The notes beneath the pieces are model-generated. The model was not told the DNA's origin. It made no database searches and saw only the letters and a list, made by a program, of their open reading frames with translations. Positions 19,978-50,676 of a stretch of DNA of 52,177 bases are shown here, piece by piece; within the stretch, counting starts at the first letter, position 1; every line of letters begins with the position of its first letter. Both the position numbers and the translations under genes were made by a program. Source of the DNA: Bacillota bacterium. Lineage in GTDB: Bacteria; Bacillota; Clostridia; Oscillospirales; Oscillospiraceae. The stretch spans positions 1-52,177 of the forward strand of contig JAQXPK010000112.1 of assembly GCA_029100605.1 (NCBI GenBank), read 5' to 3'.

Positions 19978-20154
19978 CAAAATCCGCTACGGCACATGGG
20001 CAATCCGCCGCAGCCTTCGGGCCGCAAGAGGGAACGGCCCGATATGCAGAAACAGCCGGGGCAAACCCCTTTCGGGATCTGCTCCGGCCGTTTTTCCGTC
20101 AGCAAAACACATCCGCCTGTCTCATAGCTCGAAAACAGGCAGTCATCACACATT

Positions 20155-20350
20155 TAAGCAGGTCTCCTGACTTACGCATCCACAGCCGCCGCACAGCCTT
20201 CTCGGGAAAACCCAATGACCGACTTTCGTCATGTGCGGCAGCCTCCACGCTTACAGTGGCGGCACCGTTCCGGATTTACACCGGATTCACTATTCTCCGC
20301 CGCGCCCAAACAGGAATCGCAGCGGCACTTAAACGCTTCTTTACTTGCCA
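20155..20350 (-). promoter_or_regulatory. Cobalamin (adenosylcobalamin) riboswitch
   Basis: Minus strand contains GGTGTAAATCCGGAACGGTGCCGCCACTGTAAGCG and GTAAGTCAGGAGACCTGC, the conserved cobalamin riboswitch core and P3/P1-side boxes. Confidence 0.95.
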
Positions 20351-34972: not shown

Positions 34973-36553
34973 TTACTTTCCGCTGTCGCCGTAATTGGAC
35001 AGCACTCGGGCGGAGGGATCGTTGACGTTGCAGCCCTCCCAGGACTTGTTGGGCATCCAGAAGTCCACGATCATCTGACTCTGGCCCGGATAGTATTTCT
35101 CGAAAATCTCCCGGTACAGCAGAGATTCCTTGGTAAACGGCTGGGCATGGGTATACTTTGCCCGTTTTTCTTCAAATTCTTCCTGGGTGTAGCAGGTTTC
35201 AGCGTATTCCTTGAGATAGTCCACCATGGAATGACCCACGGCGTCGGAAAAGGCCGCTTTCTCCCGCCAGAGAATGTCGTGGGGCAGATAGTCACCGTCC
35301 TCAAACGCATGGCGCAGCAGATACTTGCCCTTGTTGTATTTGTTCAGCTTCATCTCCGGATTGATTGCCATGACATACTTCACAAAGTCCAAATCGCCGA
35401 AGGGCACCCGGGCTTCCAGAGAATTGACGCTGATGCACCGGTCTGCCCGGAGCACATCGTACATATGCAGCTCCCGAATCCGCTTCTGGGCCTCCTCCTG
35501 GAAGGCCTGGGCGGAGGGGGCAAAATCGGTATACTTATAGCCAAACAGCTCGTCGGAGATTTCACCGGTAAGCAGCACCCGGATGTCGGTTGTCTCGTGA
35601 ATGGCCTTGCACACCAGATACATACCGATGCTGGCGCGGATGGTGGTAATGTCGAAGGTTCCCAGCAGCTCCACAACAGGTTCCAGCGCCGCGAGAACAT
35701 CCTCCTTGGAAATGATGACCTCAGTGTGGTCGCTGCCAATGTAATCGGCAACCTGTTTGGCGTACTTCAGGTCGATGGCGTCCTCGCTCATGCCGATGGC
35801 AAAGGTACGGATGGGTTTCTGGCTCTCCCGGGCGGCGATTGCGCACACCAGGGAGGAATCCAGGCCGCCGCTGAGGAGGAAACCAACCTTGGCATCGGCG
35901 ACCAGGCGTTTTCTCACGCCGGCAACCAGCTTGTCATGAATGTTCCGGCAAACAGTCTCCAGATCGTCGGGAAGCACGTGATCCACGGCGGCAATATCGC
36001 AGTAGCAGACGAATTTCCCGTCGCAGTAGTAGTGTCCGGGAGGAAACGGCAGGATCTTATCTGCCAGACCCACCAGATTCTTCGGTTCACTGGCAAACAG
36101 GATCGTACCGTTTTCATCGTAGCCATAGTATAGTGGGCGTATGCCGATGGGGTCTCTCGCCGCGATGAATTTGTCCTGCCGCGCGTCGTACAGGATACAG
36201 GCGAATTCCGCGTCCAGCTTGGCGAACATATCCACACCGTACTTTTCGTACATGGGCAGAAGAACCTCACAGTCGGATTCGCTGTAGAAGGTGTAGTCCT
36301 TGGACAGTTCCGCCTTGATTTTTTCAAAGCCGTAGATTTCGCCGTTGCAGACCACCCAGCTGCCGTTCAGACCGAAGGGCTGCATACCGGTGGGGTTTAA
36401 GCCCATAATGGACAGTCGGTGAAAGCCCAGAAGGCCCTGACCGGCATCCACAACGCGGGTATCGTCAGGGCCGCGGGAAATTGTTCTGGCAAAGCCTTCC
36501 TGAAATGCCTTCAGCTTCGTGGGCTTGCCGCAGTAACCGATAATGGAACACAT
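34973..36553 (-). CDS. asnB: Asparagine synthase (glutamine-hydrolysing)
   Basis: MCSIIGYCGKPTKLKAFQEGFARTISRGPDDTRV and LLSGGLDSSLVCAIAARE. Confidence 0.93.
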   Translation of the reverse strand: MCSIIGYCGKPTKLKAFQEGFARTISRGPDDTRVVDAGQGLLGFHRLSIMGLNPTGMQPFGLNGSWVVCNGEIYGFEKIKAELSKDYTFYSESDCEVLLPMYEKYGVDMFAKLDAEFACILYDARQDKFIAARDPIGIRPLYYGYDENGTILFASEPKNLVGLADKILPFPPGHYYCDGKFVCYCDIAAVDHVLPDDLETVCRNIHDKLVAGVRKRLVADAKVGFLLSGGLDSSLVCAIAARESQKPIRTFAIGMSEDAIDLKYAKQVADYIGSDHTEVIISKEDVLAALEPVVELLGTFDITTIRASIGMYLVCKAIHETTDIRVLLTGEISDELFGYKYTDFAPSAQAFQEEAQKRIRELHMYDVLRADRCISVNSLEARVPFGDLDFVKYVMAINPEMKLNKYNKGKYLLRHAFEDGDYLPHDILWREKAAFSDAVGHSMVDYLKEYAETCYTQEEFEEKRAKYTHAQPFTKESLLYREIFEKYYPGQSQMIVDFWMPNKSWEGCNVNDPSARVLSNYGDSGK

Positions 36554-36626
36554 GGGGGTATCCTCCTCAAACAACCCGTGGGAGAGCCGCAAGCGGCTCT
36601 CCCGTGGATTTACTTTCTATCTTGTT

Positions 36627-38339
36627 TTACTCAACGTCCTGCAGAGCGTCGTAGCCTTCCTCGCCGGTACGAACCTTGACTACGTTCTCCACATCGCAGA
36701 CGAAGATCTTGCCGTCGCCGATATGCCCGGTGTAGAGCACCTTCTTGGCAGTCTCGATGACCGTACGGACAGGGACTTTGCTGACCACAATGTCAACCTG
36801 AACCTTAGGCAGCAGGTTGGTCTCCACCTGAACGCCCCGGTAGTATTCCGGTTTGCCCTTCTGGATACCGCAGCCAAGGACATGGGAGACGGTCATGCCG
36901 GTGATGCCGATGGAGGTCATAGCGTTCTTCAGATTCTCCAGGCGGGATTCCTTGCAGACGATCTCCACCTTGGTGAACTTGGGCGCGCCCTCCTCCCGGA
37001 AATCGGGAACCTTCTTTACGGGCACCGCCTCGGCAGCAGGCACATCTCCGGTGACGACAACAGGCTCGTCGTCGGCGCAAACCGTGTCGGGCATCATGGA
37101 GAAGCCAGCGTAAGCAGTGAGCAGACCATGCTCGGTCACATCCAGGCCGGTCACTTCTTCCTCGGCGCTGACACGCAGGCCGATGGTCTTTTTAATAATG
37201 GTGAACACGATGGTGATAATCACAGCCACATAGGCAGCCACAGAAATAACGCCCAGCAGCTGAATAAGCAGCATATGGACGCCGCCGCCATAGAACAGAC
37301 CCTTTTCTGTGGACACGCCGGTGGCGAACAAACCGGTGAGAATGGTGCCCAGGGCACCGCACACGCCGTGAACGGAAACCGCGCCAACGGGATCATCGAT
37401 CTTGGCGACCTTGTCGAAGAACTCGACGGAGAGCACCACAACGATGCCGAAAATCGCGCCCATGATTGCGGCACCTACAGGAGATACCGCGTCGCAGCCG
37501 GCGGTGATGCCCACCAGGCCCGCCAGAGCCGCGTTATAGGTCATGGAGACATCGGGCTTGCCATAGCGGATCCAGGTAAAGATCAGGGTTACGCAGCAGG
37601 CAACCGCCGCCGCCAGGTTGGTGTTGAAGAAAATCAGGCCGGCGCTGGTCAGCGCGTCGTCGGAATCCATTGCCACGGTGGAGCAGCCGTTGAAGCCGAA
37701 CCAGCAGAACCAGAGGATGAACACGCCCAGGGCGGCCGCCGTGATGTTGTGACCCAGAATGGCCTTGGGCTTGCCCTCCTTATCGTACTTGCCGATCCGG
37801 GGGCCAAGCATTGCCGCGCCAATACAGGCACACACGCCGCCGACCATATGGACAGCCGTGGAACCGGCGAAATCATGGAAGCCCAGCTGGCTCAGCCAGC
37901 CGCCGCCCCAGATCCAGTGGCCGGAAATGGGATAGATGAACAGAGAAATACAGGCGGAGTAGATGCAGTAAGCGCTGAACTTGGTGCGCTCCGCCATGGA
38001 GCCGGAGACAATGGTTGCCGCAGTGGCACAGAACACGGTCTGGAAAATGGCAAACGCCCACAGGGGAACGCCCGAGGGGAGCACGGAGCTATAATCCCTG
38101 GAAATACCGGGATCCAGCCAGCCCAGAATCGCGTTTCCGGCGCCGAACATAATGCCGAAGCCGAACAGCCAGAAGCAGGGAGTGCCGATGCAGAAGTCCA
38201 TCAGGTTTTTCATGAGGATATTGCCGGTGTTCTTTGCTCGGGTGAAGCCCGCTTCGCACAGGGAGAAACCTGCCTGCATGAAGAAAACCAGCGCTGCGCC
38301 CAAAAGTACCCAGATGGTGTTAACAGAACTCAGTGTCAT
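36627..38339 (-). CDS. Ammonium transporter with C-terminal fused P-II regulatory domain
   Basis: Amt core FFMQAGFSLCEAGFTRAKNTGNILMKNLMDF and GFHDFAGSTAVHMVGGVCA; last about 116 aa are P-II (KVEIVCKESRLENLKNAM...QKGKPEYYRGVQVE...TGHIGDGKIFVCDVENVVKVRTGEEGYDAL). Confidence 0.95.
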   Translation of the reverse strand: MTLSSVNTIWVLLGAALVFFMQAGFSLCEAGFTRAKNTGNILMKNLMDFCIGTPCFWLFGFGIMFGAGNAILGWLDPGISRDYSSVLPSGVPLWAFAIFQTVFCATAATIVSGSMAERTKFSAYCIYSACISLFIYPISGHWIWGGGWLSQLGFHDFAGSTAVHMVGGVCACIGAAMLGPRIGKYDKEGKPKAILGHNITAAALGVFILWFCWFGFNGCSTVAMDSDDALTSAGLIFFNTNLAAAVACCVTLIFTWIRYGKPDVSMTYNAALAGLVGITAGCDAVSPVGAAIMGAIFGIVVVLSVEFFDKVAKIDDPVGAVSVHGVCGALGTILTGLFATGVSTEKGLFYGGGVHMLLIQLLGVISVAAYVAVIITIVFTIIKKTIGLRVSAEEEVTGLDVTEHGLLTAYAGFSMMPDTVCADDEPVVVTGDVPAAEAVPVKKVPDFREEGAPKFTKVEIVCKESRLENLKNAMTSIGITGMTVSHVLGCGIQKGKPEYYRGVQVETNLLPKVQVDIVVSKVPVRTVIETAKKVLYTGHIGDGKIFVCDVENVVKVRTGEEGYDALQDVE

Positions 38340-38469: not shown

Positions 38470-40566
38470 TTACTTCACGCTGAACAGCAGATCGCCGTAG
38501 GTGGGGAAGGGCCAATACTCGGAAGAGGTCTGGGTCTCAGCCTCGTCGGCTACGGCACGCAGAGCCGCCATCTTACCGAGGATCGTATCCCGGATGGCGC
38601 AGGACTCTTCCTTGATGTCGGTGTAGTTCTTCAGTTCCAGAACAGCGGCTTCCAGCTCATCGGTCTTAATGGCAATCTGGTCGGTCAGGCCAGACAGCTT
38701 GGTCAGAAGGCCGGTTTCATAACCGCAGGCAAGCTCAGGGGCAACCGCTTTCTTGGAGGCAATGGAGGATGCCAGATCGGCGGTATAGCCTTCCACGGCG
38801 GGGAGAATCTGCTTTCTCGCCATATCCACCATGGTGTTGGCCTCGATGATAACCGTCTTGCAGTAGTTCTCCAGCATGATCTCGCAGCGGGACTGAAGCT
38901 CGGAGACGGAGAAGATCTTGTGAGAAGTCAGCAGATCCACATTCTTCTTGTCCAGCAGATGGGGCATACAGTCGGGAGTGGTAGGATAGTTGCACAGACC
39001 CCGAACCTCGGTGGCCTCCTTGATCCAGGCAGCGTCGTAGCCGTTGCCGTTGAAGAGGATGCGCTTGTGATCCTTGATGGTCTTCTGGATCATCTCGTGC
39101 AGAGCGGTCTCAAAATCCTCTGCGCCCTCCAGACGATCGGCGTAGACCTTCAGAGACTCGGCGACGGCAGCGTTGAGCATGATGTTGGCGCAGGCGATGG
39201 AATCGGAAGAGCCGACCATACGGAACTCGAACTTATTGCCGGTGAACGCGAAGGGAGACGTACGGTTCCGATCGGTGGTGTCTCTGGGGAACCGAGGCAG
39301 AACATCCACGCCCAGCTTCATGGTGGTCTTCTCGGCGGCGCTGTAGGGAGTGTCGTTCTCGATGGCTTCCAGAACGCCCATCAGCTCATCACCCAGGAAG
39401 ATGGAAATCACAGCGGGAGGCGCTTCATTGGCGCCCAGACGATGGTCGTTGCCGGCGGTGGCTACGCTCAGACGGAGCAGATCCTGATAGTCGTCCACGG
39501 CCTTGATGACCGCGCAGAGGAACAGCAGGAACTGGGCGTTTTCGTAGGGGGTTTCACCGGGAGACAGCAGATTCACGCCGGTATCGGTAGCCATGGACCA
39601 GTTGTTGTGCTTGCCGGAGCCGTTGACGCCGGCGAAGGGCTTTTCATGTAACAGGCACACCAGGCCGTGCTTCGCGGCGACCTTCTGCATGATCTCCATA
39701 GTCAGCTGATTGTGGTCGGTGGCGATGTTGGTGGTGGTGTAAATGGGCGCCAGCTCGTGCTGGGCGGGAGCCACTTCGTTGTGCTCGGTCTTTGCGAGGA
39801 TGCCCAGCTTCCACAGCTCCTTGTTCAGGTCCTCCATGAACGCGGCTACCCGGGGCTTGATAACGCCGAAGTAATGGTCGTCCATCTCCTGCCCCTTGGG
39901 AGACTTGGCACCGAACAGGGTGCGTCCGGTGTAGACCAGATCCTTGCGTTTCTCGTACATCTCCTTATCTATCAGGAAATATTCCTGCTCGGGGCCGACG
40001 GAGGTGCGGACGCACTTGACATCGGTATTGCCGAAGAGCCGAAGGATCCGCAGAGCCTGACGGTTCAGTGCCTCCATGGAGCGCAGCAGCGGAGTTTTCT
40101 TATCCAGCGCCTCGCCGCCGTAAGAGCAGAACGCGGTGGGAATGCACAGGGTCTTGCCCTTGATAAACGCATAAGAAGTGGGATCCCAGGCGGTATAGCC
40201 CCGAGCCTCAAAGGTGGCGCGCAGGCCGCCGGAGGGGAAAGAGCTGGCGTCGGGCTCGCCCTTGATCAGTTCCTTGCCGGAGAAATCCATGATCACGCCG
40301 CCGTCGGGAGCAGGAGAAATGAAGCTGTCGTGCTTCTCTGCGGTGACGCCGGTCAGCGGCTGGAACCAGTGGGTGTAATGGGTGGCGCCGTGGGCAACGG
40401 CCCAGTCCTTCATTGCGGAGGCAACCGCGTTGGCGACGGAAGCGTCCAGCTTTGCGCCCTCATCGATGGTCTTGCGCAGGGACGCGTACACGTCCGCTGA
40501 CAGATTGGCCTTCATCACCCGGTCATCGAATACCAGGCAGCCGAAATAATCAGAAACAGTTTCCAT
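38470..40566 (-). CDS. glnN: Glutamine synthetase type III
   Basis: About 698 aa from [20 protein letters not shown] motifs [42 protein letters not shown]. Confidence 0.94.
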
Positions 40567-40625: not shown

Positions 40626-40681
40626 AATAAAAAAGCGGCAAGGACGCTGATGAGCATTCACTCGGAGACGTCCTTGCCTTC
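40626..40681 (-). promoter_or_regulatory. ANTAR-type hairpin overlapping leader terminator of glnN
   Basis: Minus strand GAAGGC-AAGGAC-GTCTCC (40664..40681, hexaloop A1/G4) overlaps terminator GGCAAGGACG...CGTCCTTGCC-GC-TTTTTT (40629..40678). Confidence 0.65.
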
Positions 40682-40690
40682 ACGCTGAGC

Positions 40691-40719
40691 ATTTTACACC
40701 ATGATTTCCCATTTGTCAA
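40691..40719 (-). promoter_or_regulatory. SigA promoter of glnN
   Basis: Minus strand TTGACA-17 nt-TAAAAT. Confidence 0.8.
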
Positions 40720-40756: not shown

Positions 40757-40785
40757 TTGACAAGGCGTGATAAAAGGAATATAAT
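40757..40785 (+). promoter_or_regulatory. SigA promoter of the GSI-like gene
   Basis: TTGACA-17 nt-TATAAT, perfect consensus. Confidence 0.88.
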
Positions 40786-40792
40786 ACCATCA

Positions 40793-40854
40793 GGAGCAAA
40801 GGCGTTCCCGGCGTGTCGATTGCGCCCGTTTTCCGGGGATTCCTTTGCTTTTTG
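40793..40854 (+). promoter_or_regulatory. ANTAR-type hairpin overlapping leader terminator of the GSI-like gene
   Basis: GGAGC-AAAGGC-GTTCC (40793..40808, hexaloop A1/G4) overlaps terminator AGCAAAGG (40795-40802)...CCTTTGCT (40842-40849)-TTTT. Confidence 0.65.
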
Positions 40855-40933: not shown

Positions 40934-42142
40934 ATGAAATATACTCCCCAGGAGGTCATACAGTACATTCAGGAGGAGGATGTGAAATTCATCCGTCTTG
41001 CCTTCTGCGACTGCCTCGGAAGACCGCGGAATATTTCCATCATGCCCCATGAGCTGGAGCGGGCGTTCAAGTACGGCATCGCCATCGACGCCTCAGCCAT
41101 CGCGGGCTTCGGGGACGAGGTGAACAGCGACCTGTTTCTGCATCCGGACGCCTCCACCATCACCGTTCTGCCCTGGCGTCCCGAGCACGGCAGTGTGGTG
41201 CGAATGTTCTGTGCCATCACCCATCCCGACGGCGCTCCCTTTGCCCACGACACCCGAAACCTGCTCAAGCAGGCGGTTGCGGACGCGGAAAAAGTGGGTT
41301 TCTCCTTCTCCTTTGGCTCCGAACTGGAATTCTACCTGTTTCAGCTGGACGAAAACGGCGTCCCCACGGAAGTCCCCTACGATCAGGCGACCTACATGGA
41401 TGTCGCCCCCGAGGACAGATGCGAAAATGTCCGCCGGGAGATCTGCCTGACCCTGGAGCGCATGGGCATCCAGCCGGAATCCTCCCACCACGAGGAAGGC
41501 CCCGGGCAGAACGAGGTGGATTTCCGCTATTCCGATCCCCTTTCCGCCGCGGACAACGCCGTCACCTTCCGCACGGTCGTCAAGACCATCGCCGCAAGAA
41601 ACGGGTTGTATGCGGATTTCTCCCCGAAGCCCCTGGTGGGGCATCCCGGCAGCGGCTTTCACATCAATATGTCCGTACAGGGTCAGGGAGAAGCCCTCAT
41701 GCACCGTGCCATGGGCGGCATTCTGGATAAAATCGCGGATATGACTCTATTCCTCAACCCCTCTGAGGCGTCCTACAGCCGTCTTGGCGCCCACAAGGCC
41801 CCGAAATACATCTCCTGGTCCAGCAACAACCGCTCCCAGCTCATCCGGGTTCCCGCCGCCTCCGGCGAATACCGACGCTTTGAGCTGCGCAGTCCCGACT
41901 GCACCGCGAATCCCTATCTGGCCTTCGCGCTGCTCATTTGGGCGGGGCTTTCCGGAATCCAGGGCAACATTGCGCTGCCGGAGGCCTGCAACGTCAACCT
42001 GTATAAGGCGGATTCCCAGAACCTTGCCGGTCTTTCCTCCCTCCCCCAGTCTCTGGGCGAAGCCGCGGGAATTGCCGGGAAAAGTGCTTTCATCGCGGAG
42101 CATATTCCCGCGTCTCTGACCGAGTTTTATTCCAAGCGGTAA
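40934..42142 (+). CDS. Glutamine synthetase family protein (GSI-like, short form, 402 aa)
   Basis: [77 protein letters not shown]. Confidence 0.93.
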
Positions 42143-42178: not shown

Positions 42179-42763
42179 ATGGTTTTCAGCGATCAGACCT
42201 ACAGCGTTTTGGTTGTTTCCGCCGCGCAGAAATTCAATGAAGCCCTCGCTCCCCTTCTCCCTGGCTCGGAGTATTACCCGGTGTGCTTCGTCTCCAACAT
42301 CACAGCGGCGCGGCGGGAACTTCTGAACAAAATCTATGATTTTGTCATTGTAAACGCTCCCCTGCCCGATGATCTCGGTACCCGCTTTGCCATGGACGCC
42401 TGCAGCAAGGCCGGTACCGTGGCGCTGCTGCTGGCTCGTGCCGATGTTTTTGACGAGGTGGACGCCAAAGTCTCCGCCCAAGGGGTTTTTACCCTCCAGA
42501 AGCCCACTTCCCTGCCGGCGCTCCAGCAGAGCCTGAAATGGATGGCCGCCGCCCGGGAACGGCTGCGGCGCATGGAGGAGAAAACCACCTCCATCGAGGA
42601 AAAAATGGAGGAGATCCGCCTTGTGAACCGGGCCAAATGGCTGCTCATCGAGCAGCTGAAAATGACCGAGGCGGAAGCCCACCGGCACATCGAAAAACAG
42701 GCCATGGATCGGTGTGTTTCCAAGCGGGAGATCGCTCTGGGCATTATCAAAACCTACGCTTAA
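42179..42763 (+). CDS. ANTAR-domain response-regulator-like protein with degenerate receiver domain
   Basis: C-terminal coiled coil plus ANTAR helices (VNRAKWLLIEQLKMTEAEAHRHIEKQAMDRCVSKREIALGIIKTY); N-terminal receiver fold lacking the DD pair and Asp (VLVVSAAQ, FVIVNAPLP). Confidence 0.9.
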   Translation: MVFSDQTYSVLVVSAAQKFNEALAPLLPGSEYYPVCFVSNITAARRELLNKIYDFVIVNAPLPDDLGTRFAMDACSKAGTVALLLARADVFDEVDAKVSAQGVFTLQKPTSLPALQQSLKWMAAARERLRRMEEKTTSIEEKMEEIRLVNRAKWLLIEQLKMTEAEAHRHIEKQAMDRCVSKREIALGIIKTYA

Positions 42764-49475: not shown

Positions 49476-50555
49476 TTAGCCTGAGAAATCGGAACGCCAT
49501 TCCAGAAAAAGGGCGACGCCAGCGGCAAGAAGGGCGCCGGTCAGCTTTGCCGCAAGCAGTGCCAACGCCATATTCGGCTCCGCCGCGATGGTGTAGCCCA
49601 GGTGGGCGGCAAAGGTGGAAGCGCCGCAGACACACAACGCTCCGCAGACCACCTTTCCCCGCCGATCCATCCGGGGAATCATGGCAAGGGCGGGCGCCAC
49701 ACTGACCAGTGCCAGCAGCAGCCCTGTGGTGGACACCTCGTTCAGCCCCGTGTGTCTGCCGATCCAGGCAAAGGGGCGGCGCAGCAGCCGCTGGCACAGC
49801 TCCGCCAGAGGCATACTGCCCAGCATCGCGACGGCAATGGAGCAGGCCACCTCCATGGCATCCATCAGAGGCACGCAGCCCGGAATCGGATTCCAGCCGG
49901 TAAGATACCCCACTGCGCCCAGGGTAAGACCGAATCCCGCCAACGCACGGATCGCCTTGGCAAAGCCCTGAAACAGGCGGATCATAGCCTCCGGCTTTCG
50001 GAGAAGGCCGATTAGCAGCGCCCCGCAGAGCACCAAAATCGGCATCGTCTGCCAGAGAATTACGCCAAAGCCCAATCCGGTAAGGATGCCCCCAATGAGC
50101 AGCCCCACAGGCATACAGGCAAGTCCGATCAGAATACCCCGGAGAAAAGCCGGGCGATCCTCCGCGCCCATGGTGCCCAGCCCCACGGGTATGGTAAACA
50201 CCACGGTGCAGCCGAACAGCGCGGAAACGATGATTCCGGCGAACCGACCGATCTGTGGATCCACCGCCAGCTCCGTCGCCATGGAATACCCGCCCATGTC
50301 GATGGCAAGAATGCTTCCCAGCATTCCAGGGTCGATGCCCACCGCGCCGCAAACGGGGCCGGCGAGCTTTCCCAGCAGTCCGGAGAGCACCGGCGAAAGG
50401 CAGAGAATGCCGACCATGGAAAGGGCAATGGAGCCCAGCAACCCAAACGCCTCGGCAAACCGCTGTCCCAGCCCGAACCGGTTGCCAAGAATGTAGTCCC
50501 CGCCGCCGAGGACGGCGCCGAAGGCCATAACGTACAGAATGATCCGATTGAACAT
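49476..50555 (-). CDS. eutH: EutH-like ethanolamine permease
   Basis: MFNRIILYVMAFGAVLGGGDYILGNRFGLGQRFAEAFGLLGSIALSMVGI, AIDMGGYSMATELA, FTIPVGLG typical of EutH; start trimmed from 50615. Confidence 0.85.
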   Translation of the reverse strand: MFNRIILYVMAFGAVLGGGDYILGNRFGLGQRFAEAFGLLGSIALSMVGILCLSPVLSGLLGKLAGPVCGAVGIDPGMLGSILAIDMGGYSMATELAVDPQIGRFAGIIVSALFGCTVVFTIPVGLGTMGAEDRPAFLRGILIGLACMPVGLLIGGILTGLGFGVILWQTMPILVLCGALLIGLLRKPEAMIRLFQGFAKAIRALAGFGLTLGAVGYLTGWNPIPGCVPLMDAMEVACSIAVAMLGSMPLAELCQRLLRRPFAWIGRHTGLNEVSTTGLLLALVSVAPALAMIPRMDRRGKVVCGALCVCGASTFAAHLGYTIAAEPNMALALLAAKLTGALLAAGVALFLEWRSDFSG

Positions 50556-50601
50556 ACTTCTCCTGATTGCATGGCAAAAGGGACCGCAAAAAGCCGCTGT
50601 C

Positions 50602-50676
50602 TCCCTTTTGACCACAAGCTGTCAAAAGGGAAACGGATTGCCACGCCAGGAAGGCGCCCCGGCTCGCAATGGCAGG
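50602..50676. repeat. Hairpin plus REP-like palindrome upstream of eutH
   Basis: TCCCTTTTGAC-N8-GTCAAAAGGGA followed by GGATTGCCACGCCAGGAAGGCGCCCCGGCTCGCAATGGCA (ATTGCCACGCC...CTCGCAATG palindromic pattern). Confidence 0.5.

Follow-up and report, generated by a model that had tools for sequence, protein, structure and literature searches.

Introduction

The ANTAR protein AmiR has a pseudo-receiver that is controlled by AmiC (PMC3369936), and in the NasS-NasT system a receiver-ANTAR protein is held by a co-encoded sensor and freed to bind leader RNA (PMC3795266). EutV of Enterococcus faecalis is phosphorylated by EutW, and its RNA consists of two hairpins, P1 and P2, of which P1 is needed in vivo. 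An A at the first and a G at the fourth position of the loop are the hallmark of ANTAR RNA (PMC3369931, PMC8934654), and ANTAR elements before glutamine synthetase (GS) genes are already known (PMC3369931, PMC3369936). In Clostridium saccharobutylicum, according to the account in PMC6316151, citing Stutz 2007, the ANTAR antiterminator NitR induces GS/GOGAT genes on nitrogen limitation. Pseudo-receiver ANTAR proteins, with AmiR as the example, and the clostridial ANTAR regulator NitR have both been described before.

Glutamine synthetase itself can act as the nitrogen sensor of a regulator. In Bacillus and its relatives it serves GlnR, with which it is co-encoded, and TnrA, and it is the feedback-inhibited enzyme that controls GlnR (PMC9249791). 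Both regulators bind DNA, and their GS is fully active. Receivers without a phosphoacceptor form a group of their own, the aspartate-less receivers (ALR; RitR and others). According to the available part of PMC4395418, Asn is the second most common substitution among them and they are enriched with ANTAR outputs; no example of an ALR partnered by GS was found in that part of the survey.

Here we analyse a 52,177-nucleotide contig (JAQXPK010000112.1, assembly GCA_029100605.1) of a Bacillota bacterium of the Oscillospiraceae, called the window throughout, in which an ANTAR protein is encoded directly behind a homologue of type I GS. We consider it rather probable that this protein is a phosphorelay-independent antiterminator of GS/GOGAT genes that takes its signal from the GSI-like partner, following the logic of AmiC-AmiR with a sensor of the GS fold.

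The ANTAR protein and its receiver

The gene (42179..42763, forward strand) starts with ATG, has a ribosome-binding site and lies 36 nt 3' of the stop codon of the GSI-like gene. From the ORF call, Pfam, alignments and an AlphaFold2 model, its 194-aa product consists of a pseudo-receiver, a coiled coil and an ANTAR domain. Only the last of these was recognised by Pfam (PF03861, residues 139-190, E 1.9e-15, 56.8 bits against a curated cut-off of 27.3), which returned no receiver match. In the AlphaFold2 model (27-row alignment, pLDDT 89, pTM 0.70) the receiver part forms five beta-alpha units. As in receivers, beta3 (55-59) ends in Asn59 and beta5 (104-108) in Lys108, and a helix of 49 residues (112-160) forms the coiled coil, after which come the ANTAR helices. 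Among solved structures, the closest in fold are Rv1626, EutV (6ww6, RNA-bound, TM 0.72), with which the protein also shares its domain order, and AmiR (1qo0), which has the same succession of pseudo-receiver, coiled coil and ANTAR domain. It is the one ANTAR protein found in its own genome, which is 84% complete.

A preliminary description of this gene, made from the letters alone, had read it as a receiver without phosphoacceptor aspartate and without the usual acidic pair. The alignments to solved structures bear this out: Asn59 aligns with the phosphoacceptor Asp of both KdpE and Rv1626, and Ser14-Ala15 with the acidic pair of KdpE. The model agrees, with EutV and AmiR among its structural neighbours and Asn59 at the end of beta3. 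With N59, S14 and A15 the protein lacks both the Asp phosphoacceptor and the acidic Mg-binding pair of a classic response regulator, and its receiver fold with a replaced phospho-Asp places it, by model and alignments, among the ALRs.

The same losses were seen in 212 relatives from the class Clostridia, a set made up of the first relatives collected (25 of these 27 have Asn59) and of genomes added across the class. Position 59 is occupied by N in 193 of them, S in 6, D in 6, H in 3, Q in 2, C in 1 and V in 1; position 14 is acidic in none and position 15 in three. On the sequences compared, the dead receiver is a trait of the family, beyond chance. Since the loss of acidic pair and phosphoacceptor is conserved across the class, control by a classic phosphorelay is unlikely, as had been suspected. 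Even the relatives that bear Asp at the phosphosite are without the acidic pair and therefore probably do not work as ordinary response regulators. The late lysine, which had been noted as kept, is indeed present here as Lys108 at the end of beta5, but it is not universal in the family: 187 of the 212 relatives have it, while the other 25 carry R, V, L, T, I, M or S. The loop that follows the phosphosite, N-x-P-L-P-D-D-x-G, is strongly conserved among relatives, which suggests that a docking or pocket function may survive. The family was seen in records titled Oscillospiraceae, Lachnospiraceae, Eubacteriales and Clostridia, and 222 of the 389 genomes in a class-wide sample gave a match, the weakest of these matches being probably other ANTAR proteins.

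The GSI-like partner

The first gene of the operon (40934..42142, forward strand) encodes a GSI-like protein of 402 aa, identified by Pfam and alignments; together with GSIII it makes up the two proteins of the GS fold found in the 84% complete genome. In almost every locus of the relatives with enough upstream sequence, a type I GS homologue lies directly upstream of the ANTAR gene on the same strand, usually at a distance of 20-200 nt, divergent families included. By synteny, a pseudo-receiver ANTAR gene and a co-encoded gene for a presumed non-kinase partner are thus arranged as in the AmiC-AmiR operon of Pseudomonas aeruginosa. The partners themselves differ: AmiC is an amide-binding protein of the periplasmic-binding-protein fold in a system with other targets, and the sensor of NasS-NasT (Paracoccus, Azotobacter) is a nitrate-binding NrtA-like protein, whereas the partner here is a GS homologue. 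The earlier suggestion that the input may come from a protein partner, as AmiR receives it from AmiC, fits such immediate synteny in nearly all relatives. NasR, which had been offered as a second parallel, is a poor one because it has a NIT domain in place of a receiver.

The partner has the family sequence of a type I GS and its metal, ATP and glutamate ligands, which are kept in at least 95% of the GSI-like sequences, but not the catalytic flap Glu (Salmonella E327, B. subtilis E304), which is replaced by Lys. In B. subtilis, Glu304 is catalytic and contacts glutamine in the feedback-inhibited form, and in Bacillus-type GS the C-terminal helices link the two rings of the enzyme (PMC9249791). 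In the protein of the window one flap residue is deleted, the equivalent of Asn264 is Pro, as is usual among the partners, and the C-terminal ring-linking region is shortened, with about 25 residues missing. Across 204 partners the flap position holds Lys in 148 and Glu in 38, and K, R, S, N, D, Q, C, H, L, A and F all occur in various lineages; the C-terminal tail after the anchor has a median length of 33 residues in Lys partners versus 58 in Glu partners. The contact between GS and GlnR in B. subtilis is made by the E flap and the C-terminal helices, the very parts that are changed or lost here, so that a contact between the GSI-like protein and the ANTAR protein would have to differ from it.

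A tree of the GS partners was obtained with a quick, short search and rooted with a single outgroup (archaeal GS). In this tree the partners that retain Glu branch off at the base, and most of them already stand beside non-Asp receivers; the receiver Asp therefore seems to have been lost before the Glu of the enzyme. The Lys-type partners, including that of the window, form one large clade (SH-aLRT support 97). The Glu state changed at least six times, with other lineages having lost Glu separately from the Lys clade. Every sampled genome with a Glu-less partner has a GSIII, and Glu is retained in both genomes that lack GSIII, a pattern to be read with the presence of GSIII in 76 of 78 genomes, which leaves little contrast for linking GSIII to the loss of the flap Glu. 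At two loci of relatives (L201 and L216) a second GSI gene stands in tandem before the partner GSI and ANTAR genes, which suggests duplication before specialisation.

Two other readings of this gene pair have to be considered. The motifs that rim the former phosphosite (NxPLPDDxG, KP) are among the most conserved parts of the receiver and could form a ligand pocket, and direct ligand sensing by the pseudo-receiver is possible. The antiterminator and its RNA targets would then be the same, the signal would be a small molecule (glutamine, 2-oxoglutarate or a nucleotide) and the GSI-like protein would simply be co-regulated, which alone can explain a tight operon. We hold this to be unlikely, given that the pairing with one GSI lineage is near universal while the GS degenerates, and that an enzyme with no role beyond co-regulation would not be expected to be kept after the loss of its catalytic Glu. 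The GSI-like protein could also still be an enzyme with another amine substrate, since phosphoryl transfer to glutamate may survive with the conserved ligands. It would in that case be an active ligase of the gamma-glutamyl-amine synthetase type, and the ANTAR protein would have a different input such as a pathway metabolite or PII, a domain of which is encoded nearby in an Amt-PII fusion. This seems to us quite unlikely: the flap residue drifts among lineages, unlike what a defined new substrate specificity would produce, Amt-PII is found near only a few loci, and the predicted regulon (see below) is GS/GOGAT and not amine catabolism.

Leader RNA elements

Two promoter-like sites score best in the region, those of the GSI-like-ANTAR operon (TTGACA-17-TATAAT, sigma-70 type, 12/12; 40757..40785, forward strand) and of the divergent gene for GSIII (TTGACA-17-TAAAAT, sigma-70 type, 11/12; 40691..40719, reverse strand). 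GSIII itself (38470..40566, reverse strand, Pfam) is a presumed target. Right after each promoter comes an intrinsic terminator: AGCAAAGG...CCUUUGCUUUUU at 40793..40853 (forward strand) in the GSI-like leader, with a hairpin z of -3.63, and GGCAAGGACG...CGUCCUUGCCGCUUUUUU at 40629..40679 (reverse strand) in the GSIII leader, with a z of -4.65. In both leaders the 5' arm of the terminator can refold into a short hairpin that begins near +1 and carries an AnnGnn hexaloop. This hairpin is GGAGC[AAAGGC]GUUCC in the GSI-like leader (40793..40808, forward strand), where it starts at about +1, and AGGC[AAGGAC]GUCU in the GSIII leader (40666..40679, reverse strand). At -2.7 kcal/mol, which shuffled sequences match, the GSIII hairpin alone is marginal and would therefore depend on protein binding for its stability. 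An A1/G4 hexaloop over an intrinsic terminator is also what EutV RNA has, and it corresponds to P2 of a dual-hexaloop ANTAR RNA; for P1 there is no room in the two leaders of the window.

A fixed-rule scan of the relatives found the hexaloop-terminator in 31 of 46 GSIII leaders, against 0 of 138 dinucleotide shuffles, and in 18 of 176 GSI leaders, against 0 of 528; the GSIII leader of the window, with its 4-bp stem, falls below the rule and is outside the 31. Fewer GSI leaders with the element are expected where GSI follows a glutamate-synthase-like gene inside an operon. The stems covary (GAGC/GUUC, AGGC/GUCU, CGAC/GUCG), while the percentage of stem pairing is no evidence, since the leader set was chosen for pairing. 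Of 31 leaders preceded by a good promoter, 29 have a stem that begins 7-12 nt 3' of the -10 box; there the stem is transcribed first, which leaves no room upstream for a P1 hairpin. Tandem elements are present in a few relatives.

Within the window, the leaders of amt-PII, asnB and purC are free of hexaloop elements. An Rfam search at gathering level returned no relevant RNA, only a cobalamin riboswitch (RF00174, 93 bits; 20140-20347, reverse strand) that lies directly upstream of a gene for a cobalt chelatase with a CbiK domain. A 12-base hexaloop pattern run over the genome was rejected as too unspecific (114 matches versus 53 in the reversed control), and covariance models were used instead; model matches opposite the GSIII hairpin, on the other strand, were discarded as mirror matches.

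The predicted regulon

One covariance model, R1, includes the two leaders of the window, and a second, R2, was for that reason built without them. On the window's own genome, R1 found the two GS leaders and one site on another contig (C128:23038-23100, reverse strand), directly before an ORF of the glutamate synthase type (gltB), a class-II amidotransferase (GATase_2, E 3.3e-169). The gltB leader has its own promoter-like sequence and the hairpin GAAC[AATGGC]GUUC. The top three sites of R2 in this 2-Mb genome were those of GSIII (27.9 bits), gltB (24.5) and GSI (20.8), respectively at E-values of 0.001, 0.01 and 0.12. Rough as these E-values are, the kind of genes that came out in all three cases lends independent support. 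In relatives, further elements stand before GSIII, purC, a class-II amidotransferase gene and the gene for an ABC-transporter ATPase. Downstream of GSIII in the window, the genes for an ammonium transporter that carries a C-terminal PII fusion (36627..38339, reverse strand) and, following it, for the asparagine synthase AsnB (34973..36556, reverse strand) are possible targets by read-through.

The element and the ANTAR gene also occur together. Among 16 genomes of the same genus, all nine with the ANTAR protein carry the element at E <= 1.8e-4, and none of the seven without it has a strong element (none at E <= 0.05 in five, one weak match in two). Four of the nine had supplied sequences to the model; in the five that had not (G001, G013, G015, G038, G058) the comparison stands at 5/5 versus 0/7 (Fisher about 0.001, shared ancestry uncorrected). 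One 99% complete genome of the genus without an ANTAR match has a weak element-like leader before purC (L290, G021:C45:4522-4580), possibly a relic or the target of another regulator.

Leader terminators are common before biosynthetic genes, and the binding of the ANTAR protein to these hexaloops is a prediction. That the hairpins are ordinary attenuators unrelated to the protein is nevertheless very unlikely, as many families have AnnGnn hexaloops with covarying stems over the terminators of these genes and the shuffles have none, and presence of the element tracks that of the ANTAR gene within one genus.

A clostridial ANTAR gene that adjoins a GS gene and has GS/GOGAT targets, here predicted from leaders, resembles NitR, as far as its published description allows the comparison. 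In the open-access literature available for NitR we found no description of a catalytically altered GS partner or of single-hexaloop leaders.

Proposed mechanism

The dead receiver, the conserved gene pair, the exchange of Glu for Lys in the partner, the leaders and the regulon, as read from the sequences, are the elements of the mechanism we favour, in which a GS-fold partner sets the antiterminator. The ANTAR protein would probably be active when nitrogen is limiting, in line with what is reported for NitR of clostridia. Its active ANTAR domain would bind the AnnGnn hexaloop as soon as the 5' ends of the GSIII, gltB and GSI-like-ANTAR RNAs leave the polymerase and, since the hexaloop hairpin uses the 5' arm of the terminator, RNA polymerase would read through. 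From known ANTAR proteins, RNA binding and antitermination can be strongly inferred.

The receiver would not be phosphorylated in the usual way and would serve as a docking domain set by the GSI-like protein, which would read the nitrogen status via its glutamine/glutamate/ATP site. Synteny and the loss of residues point to sensing by the partner. By analogy with AmiC-AmiR, NasS-NasT and GS-GlnR, and less firmly than the antitermination step, we suggest that the GSI-like protein acts as a sensor by binding to the pseudo-receiver, with the regulator kept inactive at nitrogen excess. In what would be the most economical polarity, the GSI-like protein would hold the ANTAR protein at nitrogen plenty and free it on limitation, and because the GSI-like-ANTAR operon has its own element, this release would be self-reinforcing.

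That a distal histidine kinase or a small phosphodonor drives the protein, via deamidation of Asn59 or through another residue, is hardly credible: reversion of Asn to Asp at such phosphosites is reported (PMC4395418), and might occur here too, and a few family members carry Asp, but essentially every member, the Asp bearers included, lacks the Mg-binding acidic pair, and no kinase gene is adjacent, the neighbours being, in keeping with the preliminary description, of other kinds (ligA, yunB, uvrD, spoIIA-type genes and eutH). Histidine kinase control was rejected on these residues and this neighbourhood; a HisKA_3 search of the genome, which covers one kinase class and is weak evidence, gave no match.

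Judged provisionally, by the open-access literature, two features appear to be new: the constant pairing of a pseudo-receiver ANTAR protein with a Glu-less GS, and the use of one hexaloop placed at +1. We are evenly divided on the wider claim that a GS turned non-catalytic nitrogen sensor directly controls an RNA-binding antiterminator via a dead receiver and a single hexaloop target at the 5' end, and that this is the main nitrogen switch of many gut Clostridia. The system may show how large groups of gut and rumen Clostridia control ammonium assimilation. It is a clear candidate for an enzyme retired to a sensor once a second enzyme, GSIII, took over the chemistry, and its compact antiterminator, with one hairpin at +1, bears on the question of one versus two hexaloops for ANTAR proteins.

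Elsewhere in the window, a gene for an EutH-like ethanolamine permease (49479-50612, reverse strand) closely follows, on its downstream side, a spoIIA-type cluster (STAS, HATPase_c_2, sigma factor), with no other eut genes seen nearby. On the other side, GSIII opens a same-strand run (20444-40566, reverse strand) of amt-PII, asnB, purC, purA, purB, guaA, glmS, pyrG, a purF-like amidotransferase gene, carA and carB. These are genes that make or use glutamine, or purine/pyrimidine genes, and the run has the appearance of a glutamine supercluster with GSIII and its terminator leader at the head.
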